From NCBI RefSeq assembly GCF_001426755.1, contig NZ_LMFJ01000001.1, positions 232,961 to 296,960 on the forward strand: a stretch of DNA of 64,000 nucleotides, in the 5' to 3' direction. The stretch comes from Aeromicrobium sp. Root495. GTDB taxonomy: Bacteria; Actinomycetota; Actinomycetes; Propionibacteriales; Nocardioidaceae. This document shows positions 33,162-63,379 of the stretch, piece by piece. The first letter of the stretch is position 1. The number at the start of each line of letters is the position of its first letter. The position numbers and the translations under genes are program-made. The notes beneath the pieces were generated by a model. The model saw only the letters and a list, made by a program, of their open reading frames with translations. It had not been told where the DNA came from and did not search any database.

Positions 33162-33266
33162 GGGCGGTGACTTAGCGTCCGTTTCTCGTCCAGCTGAGGC
33201 TCGGAACGGACGCCAAGCCACCGCTCGCCGGGGTCGGCGGCGAAAAGGGACGCCAGCTCACCGCTC
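33162..33266. repeat. Repeat cluster A: three 24-bp units
   Basis: Unit 1 (plus) is at 33162-33185, unit 2 (inverted) at 33203-33226 and a degenerate unit 3 (inverted) at 33243-33266. The core is CGGTGACTTAGCGTCCGT or its complement. Units 1 and 2 start 41 bp apart with a 17-base spacer and can pair along nearly all 24 bases. The cluster lies between two convergent genes, and unit 3 contains the stop codon of mshD. Confidence 0.8.
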
Positions 33267-51702: not shown

Positions 51703-53301
51703 TCACTGCAGGCCGTCCGACGTGAGCCCCGAGACCAAGGTGGTGGGCGTGGGCTCGCCCACGTCGACCTTCCGGGCATCGAGGGCCACGGTGGCCCGGA
51801 GCGCGTTGTGGTCGGACACGACGGGCGAGGCGTACCGGCCTCCGGCGAGACGGGCGAGCTGCTTCCAGCCCAGCACCTCGAACTCCTTGGACACGAAGAT
51901 GTGGTCGACGTGGGCCCCAGACCGCAGCACGGTGGTGGCGAACGTGTGGCCGGTGTTGATGTCGCGGTTGACGGGCTCGTCGGCGAGGTCGACCGCGTCG
52001 GTCTGGCCGACCTGGCGCATGATGGCGCCGGGCGAGTCCGAGGGACGGTGACGCCCCGAGTTGAAGTCGCCGGCGTAGATGATGGGCAGGTCGGCCGTGT
52101 TGATGGCCTCCATCCGGGCCACCATCCGGTTGGCCTCGCGCCGGCGCTTGCCGTCGTTGCCGTGACCGTTCTCGAGGTGGACGTCGACCACGATGAAGCG
52201 CCGACCCGTCTCGCGCAGGGCCAGCTCGGCCCACGTGGTGTTGCGACCGTCGCCGATGTCGAAGTTGCCGCCGGACAGCTGACGGAACAGCTCGGGACGG
52301 TAGAAGACGTAGCGCGCCTTGGCTCCGCCGGTGGCCCGCACGAACTGCCGCTTGCCGCCGCTGAAGATGGCGTTGGTGGTGGCGCCGACCCGCTTGCCGC
52401 CGGACTCCTGGAGGACGAAGACGTCGGCCTGGTTCTCGTTGAGGTAGTCGGCCATGACGCGGGCACGCCCCGCGTAGCCCGAGCACTTCTCGGAGCAGAC
52501 GTTCCACGTGGCGATGTTGAACGCCACCTCGCGCGGACGGGTGGTGACCGCCACCGGTGCGCCGAAGGCACCCACGGAGTCGCCACCGACGGGTCGGATG
52601 CGGAACCAGTACCGCGAGTCGGCCGAGAGTCCCTGCTGCACGAAGCCCGAGCCGGGGCCGAGCGTCCGCACAGTGGTGAGGTTCTTCGTGAACTTCTTGT
52701 CGCGCGCCACCTGCACGTCGTACTGGCGGGCGTTGGCGACGGCCTTCCAGTCGAGCCGTACGCCACCGGCCGAGCGCTTGTCGACCGAGACCTTGGCCAT
52801 GCGGGCGGGGGCGAGGCTGAAGCGCCCGGTGCGCGAGGAGGTGACGGTTCCGTCGCGCACGGCGTCGACACGGAAGAACTGCTCCTTGCCCGGCACCGAG
52901 GCCTTGAGGTCCTCGACGACCACCTTCGTGGTCCGGGACTCGACCTTGACGGTGTTCTTGGTCAGGGAGCGGTCGGCACCGACGCGGACGACGTAGTGGT
53001 CGGCGTCGTCGGCGACCTTCCAGTCGAGCTCGGCGCTCGTGGTGGAGACCTTGGTGGCCCGCAGCGCCGTGGGAGGGGCGTCGTCGGCGTCGGCGAGCGT
53101 GCGGGTGGCCCAGAGACCCCCCGCCAGCACGGCGACACCGGCCACGCCGGCCACGACCAGCCAGGCGGCGGAGAAGCGCCGCGGTCGGCGCCGGCCTCCG
53201 CCGGACGTGGTGCGGCGACGACCACCTGAGGGAGGCGGCGGCGGACCGGCTGGGCGCGTGGCCACGCGACGTCGCGCGGGCGTGCCTCTGCGGGTGACCA
53301 C
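51703..53301 (-). CDS. Membrane-anchored FN3 - endonuclease/exonuclease/phosphatase protein
   Basis: A 532-residue protein. A Pro/Arg-rich cytoplasmic start (residues 1-45), one membrane span (AAWLVVAGVAGVAVLAGGLWA), two fibronectin-III-like domains (about 75-265), then an EEP-fold hydrolase with TWNVCS, LQES, VDVHLENG, YAGDFNS and SDHNALR. These carry the Asn, Glu, His, Asp-Asn and Asp-His metal and catalytic residues. It is an extracellular phosphodiesterase or nuclease; the substrate (DNA, lipid or sugar phosphate) is unknown. Paralogue of the next two genes. Confidence 0.8.
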   Translation of the reverse strand: MVTRRGTPARRRVATRPAGPPPPPSGGRRRTTSGGGRRRPRRFSAAWLVVAGVAGVAVLAGGLWATRTLADADDAPPTALRATKVSTTSAELDWKVADDADHYVVRVGADRSLTKNTVKVESRTTKVVVEDLKASVPGKEQFFRVDAVRDGTVTSSRTGRFSLAPARMAKVSVDKRSAGGVRLDWKAVANARQYDVQVARDKKFTKNLTTVRTLGPGSGFVQQGLSADSRYWFRIRPVGGDSVGAFGAPVAVTTRPREVAFNIATWNVCSEKCSGYAGRARVMADYLNENQADVFVLQESGGKRVGATTNAIFSGGKRQFVRATGGAKARYVFYRPELFRQLSGGNFDIGDGRNTTWAELALRETGRRFIVVDVHLENGHGNDGKRRREANRMVARMEAINTADLPIIYAGDFNSGRHRPSDSPGAIMRQVGQTDAVDLADEPVNRDINTGHTFATTVLRSGAHVDHIFVSKEFEVLGWKQLARLAGGRYASPVVSDHNALRATVALDARKVDVGEPTPTTLVSGLTSDGLQ

Positions 53302-53390
53302 GGTGCTCCCTGGATGGTGCTCGAAGGATCGGGGACGGCCGGCACGCTGAGCGTGACAGGCCGTGGCCGAAGTTTACGCGAGGATCGCGC

Positions 53391-54638
53391 CTACTCGACC
53401 TGCATCCTCACGACGAGGGGGCTGTGGTCCGACCCGAGGTTCGCGTAGCGGCCGTCGGTGATGCGCTCGGCCTGGTGCCACCAGAGCACGCGGACCTGCT
53501 GCGGGACGGCCCACACGTGATCGACGTGGTCGCCCCACTGGACGCTCGTCTTGGGCGTGGTCTGCCAGTCGTTGTAGCTGTTGCGGTGCTGCCCGACGAG
53601 CTCCTGGGCCAGCTCGAAGGAGTCGGCGTAGCCCTTCTTGGCCATCTCGGTGCGGACGAAGTCGTCGGGTCGGTTGCGGTGCGAGTTGAAGTCGCCCGCG
53701 TAGACGACCGGCAGGTCCTCGGTGTTGTACTGCTTGACCTTCTCGAGGACGGCCTTGGTCTCGCGACCGCGTGAGAGCGCCGACTCCGCCTCCCTGCCGC
53801 TCACCGTCGTGGTGGTGTGGACGTCGACGATGATGAGGTGCTTCTGGGTCCGGAGGTCGATGAGCTCGGCCCACACGGCGTAGCGGGACTTGCCCGGCGT
53901 GACCGAGGCGGGGCTGGGGCCGATCTTCATCCAGCACGAGCGCACCCGGGACTCGCAGTCGAAGACGTCCGGCTGGTCGGGCAGCGTGGTCCTGCCCGGA
54001 GCGACCGAGAAGCGCGACGACCGCACGAAGAGGCGCTTGGCCGACTTGTACTCGACCTGGGTGTAGCCGGGGAGGAGGGTCGGCAGCTCGCTCGGGTCGG
54101 CGAAGTTGCTGGCGGCCTCCTGGAACGTGATCACGTCGGGGACGTACGTCTTGACCCGGTCGAGCACATGGGGTCGGCGCTGGGCCCACGTCTTGTCGCA
54201 CGGGCCCGCGTCGGAGCAGACGTTGTAGGTCATGAGCTTGAACGACGGCGGCCGTGCCGTGGTCTGGGCGGCGATCGTGCGATGCGCCTGACGGGCCGAG
54301 CGTGACCCCTTGGCCCCGCTGTTGATGCCGCGGACCTGGACCCAGTAGTCGGCGCCGGGGGCGAGCCCGGTGATCTTGGCGGCGGCGGAGGTGGTGCGGA
54401 CCCGCGGGGTACGGGAGTCGGCGACGGCCGCCCTGGAGCGGCCCACGAAGACCTCGTACCGCGTGGCTGCGGAGACCTTGCCCCACGTGATCGTGAGCGA
54501 GGTCCTGCTCGCCTTGGTGAACCAGACCAGCCCGACCTGTCCGGGCTTGGTGGCTGCCTGTGACGGCACGCCGGCGAGCATGGTCGTCGTCACGACCACC
54601 CCCACGAGCGCGCACAGCATGATGGTGCGTCGCTTCAT
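53391..54638 (-). CDS. Secreted FN3 - endonuclease/exonuclease/phosphatase protein
   Basis: A 415-residue secreted protein: signal peptide MLCALVGVVVTTTMLAGVPSQA, one FN3-like domain (about 35-125) and an EEP domain with TYNVCS, FQEAASNF, VDVHTTT, YAGDFNSHRN and GSDHSPLV. All active-site positions are kept. The ATG overlaps the stop of the upstream paralogue (ATGA), so both are translated from one mRNA. Confidence 0.8.
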   Translation of the reverse strand: MKRRTIMLCALVGVVVTTTMLAGVPSQAATKPGQVGLVWFTKASRTSLTITWGKVSAATRYEVFVGRSRAAVADSRTPRVRTTSAAAKITGLAPGADYWVQVRGINSGAKGSRSARQAHRTIAAQTTARPPSFKLMTYNVCSDAGPCDKTWAQRRPHVLDRVKTYVPDVITFQEAASNFADPSELPTLLPGYTQVEYKSAKRLFVRSSRFSVAPGRTTLPDQPDVFDCESRVRSCWMKIGPSPASVTPGKSRYAVWAELIDLRTQKHLIIVDVHTTTTVSGREAESALSRGRETKAVLEKVKQYNTEDLPVVYAGDFNSHRNRPDDFVRTEMAKKGYADSFELAQELVGQHRNSYNDWQTTPKTSVQWGDHVDHVWAVPQQVRVLWWHQAERITDGRYANLGSDHSPLVVRMQVE

Positions 54639-56398
54639 GACTTCTCCCTCAGCCCTGGCACGACCAGGACGACTCTCAGAGGATTATGGTCGCTCGCGAA
54701 CGGGGTTCTGTAGCTTTTCGCCGTTTTCATGTCGGGACGCAGCTGCCAGACCTTGACCGCGACGGAGCGCGACACCCAGACCTGGTCGACGTGGTCGCCG
54801 TTCTTGATGGGCCGCACGATGCCCTGGTTGGCGGAGTTGTACTCCGTGTTCTGCACGTCGCCGTCGGTGCGGCGGGCCACCGTGAGGGCGTTGGGGAGCT
54901 TCCGGAGCCCGAAGACCTTGGCCACGGCGTCGTAGCCGCCGGAGTACTTGCGCTGGTCGGCGTTGTCGCCGTTGGAGTTGAAGTCGCCGGCGTAGACGAC
55001 GGGCAGGTCGTCCGGGTTGAGCGCCGAGACCTGGCGCAGCAGCGTGCGCATCTGGGCCTCGCGTCGGGTGTCTCCCGTGCGGCCCTTGGCCGGCTCCAGG
55101 TGCGGGTCGACGACGATGAAGGGCGTGCGGGTGGTGCGGTCGCGCAGCTCGGCCCACACGGCGTAGCGCTTGCGCTTGGCGTCGAGCGTCAGGCCGCCGG
55201 ACCTCAGCATCGTGTACCTGGACGTGCGGTAGAAGAGCGACTTGGCGTGCAGGTAGGCGGCCCGCTTGAAACCGGGCAGCTGGGTGATGAAGTTGGTGTC
55301 CTTGTCGCCGGACTCCTGCGTGGAGAGGATGTCCGCGCGCGTGGCGCGGGCGGCCGCCCCGGCGAGCTTCTTGCGGTAGGGCCACGCCTTGACGTACCGC
55401 TCGTTCGCGGCGTCGCGGCACTTGTCCTGGCCGCACAGGTTGTAGGTGGCGAGCTGGACCGTCGCGGCGAACGTGGGCAGCGACCGGGTGACGACGGGCG
55501 AGGTCGGGCCCGCGGTGGTGCCGTTCCTGCCCCGGACCCGGATCCAGTAGCGCTGCCCGGGCACGAGCCCTGAGATCCGGGCGCGGGGCGACGTCGTGGC
55601 GACGGTGCGTCGTCCGCTCCGGAGGTCGGAGGAGGTGAAGGCCTCCACGAGGTAGCGCTCGGCGTTGCGCGCCGTGGTCCAGCTCAGGGGGATCGAGGTC
55701 GTCGTGGCCGTGCCGAGCGTCGTCGTGGTGACCGGCGCGACCGCGAGGTCGAGCTTGTAGACGACCGATCGCGTGCGGGCGTCGCTGTTGTAGGAGATGA
55801 CGTAGGCGTAGTAGTCGGTGCCGGGGCGCGAGGTGAGACCGCTGATCGTCGCCTTGAGCGCGGGTCCCTTGGCCGACGTCCGCAGGCAGCCGGTGTCGGT
55901 GGGTGCGGAGCGCAGGCACAGGACGTACGCGGTGGCGTGCGTGGCGGGCGACCAGGTGAACGTGGCGCTCGAGAGGGTCTGGGTGTGCTTCACCGAGCGG
56001 GCCGGCGTGGGGAGAGGGGCGAGCTCGACGGAACGGACGGCGGAGGTGCGGTGGCCGCTGCGGTTGTAGGCGACGAGCGTGGCGACGTAGTCGGTGCCCG
56101 TGCGCCGGGTGAGGTCGTCGAGACGGGCCCGGGTGGTGGTGAGCCGCGGGGTGCGGGCCGCGCACGCGGCGTCCTTCGCGGTGCGTCGCAGGCACACCAC
56201 GTAGCTCGTGGCGCCCTTCACGGGGGCCCACGAGAAGACGACGCTGGTGGTCCGCGGCGTGACGTGCGTCAGGACCGGACGCGAAGGAGCGGCCGCCGAG
56301 GCTGCCGGCGCGGGGACCAGGAGGGTGGCGGCGACGAGGCCCGCCACGCACGCGGCGAGGGCGGACAGACGGCCGTGGGACGGCGCACGTCGGGGCAT
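54635..56398 (-). CDS. Secreted multi-FN3 - endonuclease/exonuclease/phosphatase protein
   Basis: A 587-residue secreted protein: signal peptide (LAACVAGLVAATLLVPAPAASA), three FN3-like repeats (about 38-310; each with W-pair and TDYxAxVxxYN-type ends), then an EEP domain with TYNLCG, TQESGDKD, VVDPHLEPA, YAGDFNSNGDN and SDHNPLRVVL. The catalytic set is complete, with Asp replacing the usual first residue in the VxxH motif. First gene of the tandem trio. Confidence 0.8.
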   Translation of the reverse strand: MPRRAPSHGRLSALAACVAGLVAATLLVPAPAASAAAPSRPVLTHVTPRTTSVVFSWAPVKGATSYVVCLRRTAKDAACAARTPRLTTTRARLDDLTRRTGTDYVATLVAYNRSGHRTSAVRSVELAPLPTPARSVKHTQTLSSATFTWSPATHATAYVLCLRSAPTDTGCLRTSAKGPALKATISGLTSRPGTDYYAYVISYNSDARTRSVVYKLDLAVAPVTTTTLGTATTTSIPLSWTTARNAERYLVEAFTSSDLRSGRRTVATTSPRARISGLVPGQRYWIRVRGRNGTTAGPTSPVVTRSLPTFAATVQLATYNLCGQDKCRDAANERYVKAWPYRKKLAGAAARATRADILSTQESGDKDTNFITQLPGFKRAAYLHAKSLFYRTSRYTMLRSGGLTLDAKRKRYAVWAELRDRTTRTPFIVVDPHLEPAKGRTGDTRREAQMRTLLRQVSALNPDDLPVVYAGDFNSNGDNADQRKYSGGYDAVAKVFGLRKLPNALTVARRTDGDVQNTEYNSANQGIVRPIKNGDHVDQVWVSRSVAVKVWQLRPDMKTAKSYRTPFASDHNPLRVVLVVPGLREKS

Positions 56399-58003: not shown

Positions 58004-58704
58004 CGATCACCGATCAGGTCAACGCCCAGATCAAGTCGCTGCTCGACGAGGTCAAGAACCTCAGCGAGACGCTCAAGAAGTTCGACGTCGACGACGTCCA
58101 GAAGAAGGCCACCGGCCTCGTCGAGGACGTGCAGTCCAAGGCCAAGGCGTCCTACGACGACTACACCTCCAAGGCCAAGTCGTCCTACGACGACCTCGTC
58201 AAGAAGGGCGAGGACTTCGTCGCCCAGGCCAAGGCGCTGAAGCTGGACGACGTCCAGAAGACCGCCGAGGGTCTCGTGGCGAGCCTGCGCAAGGACGCCA
58301 AGAAGAACATCGCCGAGGCGCGCAAGGCCGCCGAGGAGGCTGTCGCCGAGGCCCAGGCCACGGTCAGCAAGGCGTCGAAGAAGGCTCCGGCCGCCCCCAA
58401 GGCCCCCGCGGCCAAGAAGGCTCCCGCGGCCAAGAAGTCGCCGGCCAAGAAGGCCTCGGCCGCGAAGAAGACCGTGACGGCCAAGACCTCGACCGCCAAG
58501 AAGGTCGCCGAGAACAAGACGGCCGCCGCCGAGAAGGCCACCGTCAAGGCCGCCACCACTCCGGCCAAGAAGGCTCCGGCTGCGAAGAAGGCTCCCGCGG
58601 CCAAGAAGGCTCCGGCTGCGAAGAAGGCTCCGGCCGCCAAGAAGGCCCCCGCGGCCAAGAAGGCTCCGGCTGCGAAGAAGGCTCCGGCCGCCAAGAAGGC
58701 CTGA
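58000..58704 (+). CDS. HbhA-like Lys/Ala-rich surface protein
   Basis: A 234-residue protein. The N-terminal 130 residues are a long coiled coil (QIKSLLDEVKNLSETLKKFDVDDVQ...). The C-terminal 100 are Lys-Ala-Pro rich with seven exact-register KAPAAK-type units, as in mycobacterial heparin-binding haemagglutinin and histone-H1-like tails. Such tails bind sulfated glycans, DNA or ribosomes. There is no signal peptide, as in HbhA. Gene order (XRE - HbhA - DUF2516) matches Rv0474-Rv0476. Lysine methylation of the tail, known in HbhA, is possible. Confidence 0.8.
   Translation: MTITDQVNAQIKSLLDEVKNLSETLKKFDVDDVQKKATGLVEDVQSKAKASYDDYTSKAKSSYDDLVKKGEDFVAQAKALKLDDVQKTAEGLVASLRKDAKKNIAEARKAAEEAVAEAQATVSKASKKAPAAPKAPAAKKAPAAKKSPAKKASAAKKTVTAKTSTAKKVAENKTAAAEKATVKAATTPAKKAPAAKKAPAAKKAPAAKKAPAAKKAPAAKKAPAAKKAPAAKKA
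58570..58695 (+). repeat. Seven 18-bp coding tandem repeats
   Basis: Seven in-frame 18-base units of the form AAG GCN CCN GCN GCN AAG encode KAPAAK. Third positions vary among three versions (for example AAGGCTCCGGCTGCGAAG and AAGGCCCCCGCGGCCAAG), so copy number may change by slippage or recombination between like units. Confidence 0.85.
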
Positions 58705-61343: not shown

Positions 61344-61967
61344 GTGTACTTCCAGGCGTCGCTGCTCGACACGGCCGACGAGCCCACGCTCGGGCCGCTC
61401 GACGCCCGGCTCCAGCGGCGCCAGCTCGGCGACGGGGCCTGGGTCGACGTCCGGCCCGGGTGGGTCGACGGTGCCGACCCCTTGTTCTTGTCGCTGCAGA
61501 CCTCCGTGAGGTGGCGGGCCGAGCGTCGGGAGATGTACGACTCGGTCGTCGAGGTGCCCCGGCTGCTCGCCCACTTCGGGCCGCGCCAGGAGTGGCCCGA
61601 CCCGTCGCTCGAGGGGATGCGCTCCGCGCTGAACGATCACTACCGCGAGGAGCTGGGGGAGGACTTCGTGTCGGCGGGGCTCTGCTACTACCGCGACGGT
61701 CGCGACAGCGTGGCCTGGCACGGCGACCGCATCGGTCGGGGGCGCGAGGAGGACACCATGGTGGCCATCGTGTCGCTCGGCGCTCCACGCCGCCTGAGCC
61801 TGCGTCCCCGAGGCGGCGGCGAGCAGATCGGCTTCGTCGTCGGTCACGGCGACCTCCTGGTGATGGGCGGCTCCTGCCAGCGCACGTGGGACCACGCCGT
61901 CCTCAAGACGGCCAAGCCCGTCGGCCCCCGCATCTCCATCCAGCTCCGCCCCGCCGGCGTCGCCTGA
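61344..61967 (+). CDS. AlkB-like 2-oxoglutarate/Fe(II) dioxygenase
   Basis: A 207-residue AlkB-family protein: iron ligands His126 and Asp128 (AWHGDRIG), His184 (WDHAV), and 2-oxoglutarate Arg196 (GPRISIQLR). CYYRDGRDSVAWH is the AlkB-type substrate-side lead. It removes alkyl groups from nucleic-acid bases. GTG 61344 lies 6 bases after TAGTCT, giving a leaderless start. It is followed at once by repeat cluster B. Confidence 0.85.
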   Translation: MYFQASLLDTADEPTLGPLDARLQRRQLGDGAWVDVRPGWVDGADPLFLSLQTSVRWRAERREMYDSVVEVPRLLAHFGPRQEWPDPSLEGMRSALNDHYREELGEDFVSAGLCYYRDGRDSVAWHGDRIGRGREEDTMVAIVSLGAPRRLSLRPRGGGEQIGFVVGHGDLLVMGGSCQRTWDHAVLKTAKPVGPRISIQLRPAGVA

Positions 61968-61972
61968 CCCCC

Positions 61973-62119
61973 GAGCGGTGACGTGGCGTCCGTTCCGCCT
62001 GGCCCGAGCGTGGGGGCGGTGACTTGGCGTCCGTTTCGCCCGGCCCTGCCGTGTGGGCGGTGAGTTGGCGTCCGTTTGCAACCCCTTCGGGCCCTGAAAC
62101 GGACGCTGACCCACCGCCC
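61973..62119. repeat. Repeat cluster B: four 24-bp units
   Basis: Units at 61973, 62014 and 62055 are forward (core CGGTGACTTGGCGTCCGTTT); the fourth at 62096-62119 is inverted. Starts are exactly 41 bp apart in every step, with 17-base GC-rich spacers that differ in sequence. Units 3 and 4 can pair over most of their length. The rest of the gap to the DUF559 gene (62120-62214) shows nothing clear beyond a GATGGT hexamer. Confidence 0.85.
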
Positions 62120-62214
62120 CGAGGTCGTCCACAGGTCTCGCGCGTCCGTACGGCCCTCCACAAGCTCGATGACAGCGGTGGCTCGACCACCCAGGGCGGT
62201 CGTGGGATGGTCCT

Positions 62215-63207
62215 GTGCGCATCATCGACGAGCAGTTCCGGACCGGCCCCTTCCATCGCGAGGCCCTGCTGACCGCCGGCTACTCGGAGAAGGTCCTGCG
62301 GGGCCGCCGGTTCCGCAGGTTGTTCCCACGGGTGTGGGTGCACGTCGACCACGAGATGACGGAGGCCGACTGGATCGCTGCCGCCCGCCTCGCGATGCCG
62401 TCGGACGCCCGTGTCACCGGGGCGACGCGGCTGAGGCAGCTCGGCATCGACGTCCCGGCGGAGCGCCTCCAGTTCGTGGTGGGGCGGGACCTGCACCTCG
62501 ACCTCGACGGAATCGACCTGCACCGCACCGACCGCCTGCCTCCCTGCACCGCCGAGGGCGTCTCGCCGGCCGCCGCGTACGTGGAGCTCTGCCGCTACGC
62601 CACCGTGATGGCGGCGATCCGCATCGGGGACGAGCTCCTGCACCAGGAGCACATGACGTTGCTCGAGCTCAGGGAGCTGGTGACAACGGAGAGCTGGCGA
62701 GAGGGTGCCGCGCAGGCGCGATGGGTGAGTCGGTACCTCGATCCGCGGTCTGCGTCACCTCAGGAGTCGACGTGCCGGGCCAGGATCGTCTTCGCGGGCC
62801 TTCCGTGGCCGGTGGCCAACCTCGAGCTGCGGGCCGACGGAGTGGTCGTCGCGATCCTCGACCTGGCCTTCCCGCGCTGGAACGCCGCGGCGGAGTACGA
62901 GGGCGGGCACCACCAGACCGAACGGTCGCAGTACCTGCGCGACATCACGCGCTTCGCCGACCTCCGCGACCTCGACATCGAGTACGTCCAGATCACCAAG
63001 GAGCTGGCAAGACGACCCATCAGCATGGTGGTCGCGATCCACACGATGCTCGTGCGGTGCGGCTATGACGGCCCTGCCCCCAGCTTCGGTGCGACGTGGC
63101 GCCAGCTCCAGGAGCCGATCCCGACCGCCGTCGCCGGTCCCACGCGTCGCTCGAGCGGTGAGCCCGCGTCCGTCTGGCGCCGCGATCGGGTTCGAAACGG
63201 ACGCTGA
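62215..63207 (+). CDS. DUF559 / AbiEi-like protein with restriction-type nuclease fold
   Basis: A 330-residue protein of a multi-copy actinobacterial family. The N-terminal 100 residues (HREALLTAGYSEKVLRGRRFRRLFPRVWVH) resemble the AbiEi-type winged helix. The C-terminal DUF559/Vsr-like nuclease part reads LELRADGVVVAILDLAFPRWNAAAEYEGGHHQTERSQYLRDITRFADLRDLDIEYVQIT, with the Asp, Glu and Lys-region typical of PD-(D/E)xK enzymes. GTG 62215 is the only good start. Repeat clusters flank it on both sides, and its last 18 codons (from 63154) run through unit 1 of cluster C. The biological role is unknown. Confidence 0.75.
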   Translation: MRIIDEQFRTGPFHREALLTAGYSEKVLRGRRFRRLFPRVWVHVDHEMTEADWIAAARLAMPSDARVTGATRLRQLGIDVPAERLQFVVGRDLHLDLDGIDLHRTDRLPPCTAEGVSPAAAYVELCRYATVMAAIRIGDELLHQEHMTLLELRELVTTESWREGAAQARWVSRYLDPRSASPQESTCRARIVFAGLPWPVANLELRADGVVVAILDLAFPRWNAAAEYEGGHHQTERSQYLRDITRFADLRDLDIEYVQITKELARRPISMVVAIHTMLVRCGYDGPAPSFGATWRQLQEPIPTAVAGPTRRSSGEPASVWRRDRVRNGR

Positions 63208-63379
63208 GTCACCACCCGACGGCCGGCCCAAGCGAAACGGACGCGAAGTCACCGCCCCGCGGCCGGGCACGGGCGAAACGGACGCTGAGTCACCGCCCGA
63301 CGGCCGGCCCAAGCGGAACGGACGCTAAGTCACCGCCCCACGGCTGGGCACAGGCGGAACGGACGCCAGGTCACCGCCC
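63153..63379. repeat. Repeat cluster C: six 24-bp units, partly an 81-bp tandem
   Basis: A degenerate forward unit (63153-63176, inside the DUF559 gene) is followed by five inverted units starting at 63194, 63234, 63275, 63315 and 63356. Steps are 41, 40, 41, 40 and 41 bp. Spacers alternate: GACGGCCGGCCCAAGC occurs twice unchanged, and a CGCGGCCGGGCACGGGC-type spacer occurs in the other two gaps with three differences. The last five units thus form 2.5 copies of an 81-bp dimer. Confidence 0.85.

Follow-up and report, generated by a model that had tools for sequence, protein, structure and literature searches.

In the window, by which we mean the whole 64,000-nucleotide stretch of DNA that was analysed, a predicted nuclease gene is bracketed by two clusters of a palindromic repeat that is also dispersed through the genome of its host (G000). 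Relatives of the gene, within the genus and across the Actinomycetes, are paired in the same way with repeats of their own. We consider it likely that the proteins of this family are DNA-reading nucleases, each devoted to one repeat, which it would mobilize in trans in a REPIN/RAYT-like manner although the enzyme is unrelated to RAYT. The features of the window that enter the analysis are listed below.

33162-33266: cluster A; forward arm 33164-33185, reverse arm 33203-33224, decayed arm 33243-33264.
61344-61967, plus strand: gene for an AlkB-like 2OG-Fe(II) oxygenase (PF13532), adjoining the family gene.
61973-62119: cluster B; forward arms 61975-61996, 62016-62037 and 62057-62078, reverse arm 62096-62117.
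62055-62119: hairpin module of cluster B; DNA fold -23.9 kcal/mol, z -6.4.
62215-63207, plus strand: family gene; GTG start, 330 codons, 330-residue product.
About 62755-62952, plus strand: predicted catalytic region of the C-terminal Vsr/DUF559-type nuclease domain; residues E184, D216, H233 and D243.
63153-63379: cluster C; forward arm 63155-63176, reverse arms 63194-63215, 63234-63255, 63275-63296, 63315-63336 and 63356-63377.

Arms were located on both sides of the family gene, with the forward arm of cluster C falling within its 3' end; a sequence-only reading of the window had described both the bracketing by clusters B and C and the start of C inside the gene correctly. The same reading took the unit to be a 24-bp repeat. 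The repeat is real (65 copies at three or fewer mismatches in the 3.58-Mb genome versus none for a reversed-pattern control), but it is not a simple 24-bp unit; it is a bipartite 22-nt arm, GCGGTG-N5-GCGTCCGT, that occurs in inverted pairs. In the 24 modules of G000 that were compared, two inverted arms stand 39 bp apart (start to start) with a 17-nt loop between them, and additional arms are stacked outwards at steps of 40-41 bp, giving the layouts F-F-F/R in cluster B and F/R-R-R-R-R in cluster C. Thirteen of the 22 arm positions are identical in at least 47 of the 48 arms, a conservation that is in part a selection effect, since the modules were chosen by similarity. The cluster B and cluster C flanks of the gene are mirror images (108-nt inverted match at 76%). 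The hairpin fold of cluster C is no better than that of its shuffles (z -0.55). Two other repetitive stretches were noticed in the window: at 52039-55336 on the minus strand, three related stretches (repeat families D4 and D6) read like consecutive domains of the endonuclease/exonuclease/phosphatase type, and at 58399-58701 a tandem repeat encodes a lysine/alanine-rich KAPAAKKA tail that is histone H1-like.

About 110 arms are present in the genome, almost all of them extragenic, and a looser pattern finds 113. Among arms inside clusters, all 14 fixed positions are matched by 103, with one mismatch in 18 and two mismatches in seven; this inside-cluster distribution alone was used, because the clusters were defined by near-exact arms. 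With one apparent exception the clusters are extragenic, typically 7-28 bp past a stop codon, and they are enriched between convergent genes (11/25 compared with 7/46 window gene pairs, p = 0.011), although the gene calls behind these positions came from a simple codon model and are approximate. Cluster A lies about 26 bp past the end of one gene and overlaps the end of a convergent gene; as had been observed before, it has no family gene beside it and is a dispersed module. The repeat has no Rfam family, the one sub-threshold match being what chance would give. The loops of the modules are unrelated, both in this repeat family and in that of genome G016, and the paired arms of neither show covariation; these copies are old, unless they are retained as binding sites. 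Recent whole-module copying was not seen in either.

Relatives of the window protein are present in 46 of the 49 genomes of the genus. The window's own repeat is absent beside most of them, including the 51% relative L039, which would imply that there is no pairing. That conclusion was wrong and was overturned by a de novo self-comparison of the flanks, in which nearly every relative proved to have a palindromic repeat on both sides, of a type that differs between genes. The window's repeat is thus missing because each gene has a different one. No single 24-mer can serve as a test for all of them, and every gene must be compared with the repeat that it carries. Enrichment of repeats next to DUF559 genes, the check that the sequence-only reading had proposed, was found in this way: within about 400 bp of the gene ends the hairpin density was 0.95/kb (hairpins near 47 of 74 relatives), compared with 0.05/kb in random control regions of the same genomes (one of 19). 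The best match between the upstream and downstream flanks of the same gene averaged 24.3 for the 74 relatives, against a maximum of 14.6 in 10,000 permutations. About 30 ordinary long genes of the window gave no flank matching (12.2 versus 13.5), and the nuclease gene alone among these long genes reached a score of 18 or more. An arm of the type G(C/A/G)GGT(G/A)-N-core is found on both sides in 54 of the 74 genes. Upstream, the arm closest to the gene stops about 96 bp short of the start codon; downstream, the arm runs into the 3' end of the gene in 83%. What is seen in the window is therefore the regular arrangement in this family. The flanks of the CCACC-core members (L129, L131, L135, L137, L139, L141-L146 and L149) match strongly across genomes (scores 40-75), for which a common neighbour seems likely; a tRNA in that role was not supported.

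The pairing extends beyond the genus. A family profile detected at least one member in 148 of 150 genomes from the taxonomic family of the window and in 153 of the 198 Actinomycetes genomes sampled. When 31 members belonging to other genera and families were put through the flank test, the score was 27.0 (permutation maximum 15.9), and the gene's own partner flank ranked first in 26 of them. Own-flank matching therefore beats all 10,000 permutations within the genus and outside it, which supports the REP/RAYT-like association of gene and repeat first suggested from the window, and the statistical link whose absence would have counted against that suggestion is strongly present. The arms begin with GCGGTG or GTTGATC. 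The flanking core GTTGATCNTGGAG occurs in up to 163 copies per genome in one distant genus (genomes of 5.6-7.9 Mb) and in 0-2 copies in genomes of other groups. A pair of paralogs in G268 has two repeat sub-types at its flanks, with spacings of 43 and 55 bp.

Cores taken from gene flanks only were then counted throughout the genus (49 genomes). GCACCTCTC, read from the flanks of L103 (G023) and L104 (G016), has 264 copies in G016, 125 in G023, 18 in G034 and seven or fewer elsewhere; the G034 gene L121 carries a core near GCACCTCTC. The control pattern with one base less spacing has at most five copies in any genome. GCGTCCGTT has 113 copies in G000, 39 in G016, 34 in G023, 26 in G001 and 11 or fewer elsewhere, and all four rich genomes have family genes flanked by GCGTCCGTT or a close form of it (the window gene, L128, L150 and L113). 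L150 (G023:C35:5467-7198) is a broken family gene with a 141-residue open frame to the first stop. G023 nevertheless retains 34 copies of a near variant of its repeat, which shows that loss of the gene need not remove the repeats. CCACCGTATG, read from the flanks of the 41% paralog L036 of G000, has 39 copies in that genome. G000 consequently has two paralogs whose repeat families are distinct, with arm spacings of 39 and 28 bp. Genomes with a CCACCGTATG-core gene hold more CCACCGTATG copies than others (p = 1.8e-8); the fit is imperfect, since G048 has 26 copies and no cognate gene among the genes examined. Repeat-rich genomes lacking the gene family had been named as a finding that would speak against the association; where a genome has many copies of a given core, a gene with the core is nearly always present too.

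These results bear on the reading in which the repeats are no more than terminators or REPs of the host, of an ordinary kind, and lie beside the gene by coincidence. The location past stop codons and the hairpin potential of some modules are what it would lead one to expect, but it is refuted by the permutation tests within and outside the genus, by the prediction of genome-wide repeat content from gene flanks and by the control genes without signal, and we regard it as scarcely credible.

The C-terminal part of the window protein is, on profile evidence, a predicted Vsr/DUF559-type nuclease domain. The window protein alone stayed below threshold and gave no Pfam match. Of 30 members scanned against Pfam, 15-16 matched either DUF559 or MTES_1575, a Vsr-type REase model, and the only models hit were DUF559, MTES_1575, AbiEi_1 and DUF2726. 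Profiles reach PDB entries 3hrl (E 4e-4) and 3r3p, a mobile-intron endonuclease (E 0.004). Residues E184, D216, H233 and D243 are invariant in family members across the class, and E227 is nearly so. The N-terminal part is probably a winged helix of the AbiEi-like kind, as suggested by the AbiEi_1 match of one of the 30 members together with general knowledge of AbiEi-like proteins. A structure model from two sequences had a mean pLDDT of 34, too low to be used for judging the nuclease fold. With the antitoxin AbiEi of type IV toxin-antitoxin systems the N-terminal region shares an annotation-style resemblance, whereas the C-terminal part here is a predicted nuclease. The genes next to the window gene encode AlkB-like (PF13532) and DUF2071 proteins, no gene for the AbiEii nucleotidyltransferase toxin was found beside it, and an AbiE toxin-antitoxin reading was set aside. 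The domain itself is that of the DUF559 (PF04480) and MTES_1575 (PF18741) entries, including 3hrl and 3r3p, and has the same conserved residues, acidic ones and a histidine. In those entries the domain stands alone or in a fusion, and no repeat is reported for them; in the present proteins it follows a putative N-terminal reader and is tied to dispersed palindromes.

At 16 loci the family gene adjoins the same alkB-like gene, from which we infer that it has been inherited in place. Family members (that of the window, L105, L110, L111, L117 and others) often come immediately after an alkB-like gene, and there are several species in which the family gene precedes a gene whose end reads like typA. 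Gene order thus makes the alkB/typA-like site the putative preferred or ancestral locus of the family. The AlkB-like gene at 61344-61967 is a marker of a conserved locus common to orthologs, which does not imply that it belongs to the putative system. The cores at the alkB loci differ between species (GCGTCCGTT, TGCCGTCAC, CTCGTCGAT, GCGACCTAT, GTCGCCCAT, GGGCCCAAG and others). Core similarity tracks protein similarity (Mantel rho 0.24, reached in 0 of 2000 permutations); rho is 0.26 for the N-terminal half and 0.12 for the C-terminal half, which is only a hint that the N-terminal half may be the part that reads the core.

An autonomous mobile element, IS-like or homing-endonuclease-like, would consist of the gene and its inverted flanks, with the dispersed modules as non-autonomous remnants (MITEs). 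The mirror-image flanks, with their 108-nt inverted match at 76%, and the reach of the profile to the mobile-intron endonuclease 3r3p agree with this. It is nevertheless very improbable in our view: no near-identical copies of the gene were found in G000, where the closest paralog (L036) is 41% identical, the gene occupies one place in many species, and it is free-standing rather than within an intron or intein. A syntenic 20-kb region at 87-93% identity has five clusters in G016 and one, at a common site, in G023, and neither clean insertions nor target duplication was seen between the filled and empty sites. A palindrome of another type, ACCCGTTGAGTGTGACGTTTGGACGGTGA...TCACCGTCCAAACGTCACACTCAACGGGT, is dispersed as well, being present at L254:14850-14985 (G016:C4) and at more than 20 places in G023. 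No relatives of the family were found in viral contigs.

Signs of copying come from two other repeat families. In G287, 19 units have 13 invariant outer bases per arm and a partly common loop (48% pairwise identity, compared with 33-35% for the flanks), and the units of the second repeat family of G000 have most of the loop in common. With common loops and unrelated flanks, the units of both families look like discrete copies. This matters for the main rival, in which the protein binds the repeats for a cell function (transcript ends, chromosome organization, self-recognition or repair) without mobilizing them, the arms being binding sites under selection and the flanking copies regulating the gene. 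Near-exact arms with free loops and N5 positions that do not covary in G000 would suit such binding sites, as would the clusters past stop codons and between convergent genes and the fixed position of the flanking arms, some 96 bp ahead of the start codon on one side and spanning the stop codon on the other. It accounts less well for a nuclease active site that has been kept, or for the two families with common loops, sharp borders and unrelated flanks; and where whole repeat families change core between species while the ortholog stays in place, some copying process is needed. We hold this rival to be a serious but rather unlikely explanation.

Under the preferred reading, that of a dedicated nuclease mobilizing its repeat, the protein would read the bipartite arm through an outer segment (GCGGTG in most of the genus) and a gene-specific inner core, two such arms being presented inverted at a fixed distance. 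Binding followed by cutting or nicking at the arms would let the palindromic unit be copied in trans into other extragenic sites. The gene would stay put and be inherited vertically, and the flanking repeats and scattered copies would shift specificity together with the protein. What the data establish is the pairing of gene and repeat, with its gene specificity, its dispersal and its spread over the class; of movement, only the differing presence of clusters between species was seen. That difference between G016 and G023 speaks for this reading, as does the lack of near-identical gene copies, whereas the unrelated loops and non-covarying arms of G000 and G016, the filled and empty sites that were not clean, and the CCACCGTATG copies of G048 speak against it.

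REPIN/RAYT systems consist of REP doublets and TnpA-REP, a Y1 HUH transposase (PMC3116915, PMC3733652, PMC8266576), which has been proposed to bind and cut the REPIN and let the unit be copied elsewhere (PMC3116915). Like them, the present system has extragenic palindromic doublets that keep a constant spacing and number in the tens to hundreds, and its nuclease gene lies between copies of the cognate repeat, one type per paralog, without being multiplied along with the repeat. It differs in its enzyme, a predicted Vsr/DUF559-type nuclease rather than a Y1 HUH transposase, and in its bipartite arms with a gene-specific core. There is no common GTAG or CGTC tag (CGTC occurs only within the core GCGTCCGTT), and compensatory changes are absent, since in none of the three families tested did true arm pairs do better than shuffled ones. 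Given the different enzyme, the missing tag and the lack of compensatory changes, the system is not a RAYT but would work like one. No published account of a DUF559-type nuclease paired with palindromes was found in the literature searched, which left out most subscription papers and preprints.

On balance we lean towards a broader reading, in which this is a class-wide system of Actinomycetes, independent of RAYTs, whose Vsr/DUF559-type nucleases with a winged-helix-like reader would each propagate, and co-evolve with, a private palindromic repeat, as a second, convergent origin of REP-type replicators with different chemistry. The pairing provides a function hypothesis for a very common uncharacterized nuclease family and accounts for abundant dispersed repeats in the genomes of Actinomycetes. 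It also supplies protein-site pairs from nature by the dozen, among them orthologs that share a locus but differ in core, as material on how a nuclease changes its DNA specificity. Should mobilization be demonstrated, REP-like replicators would have had two or more origins, based on unrelated enzymes.
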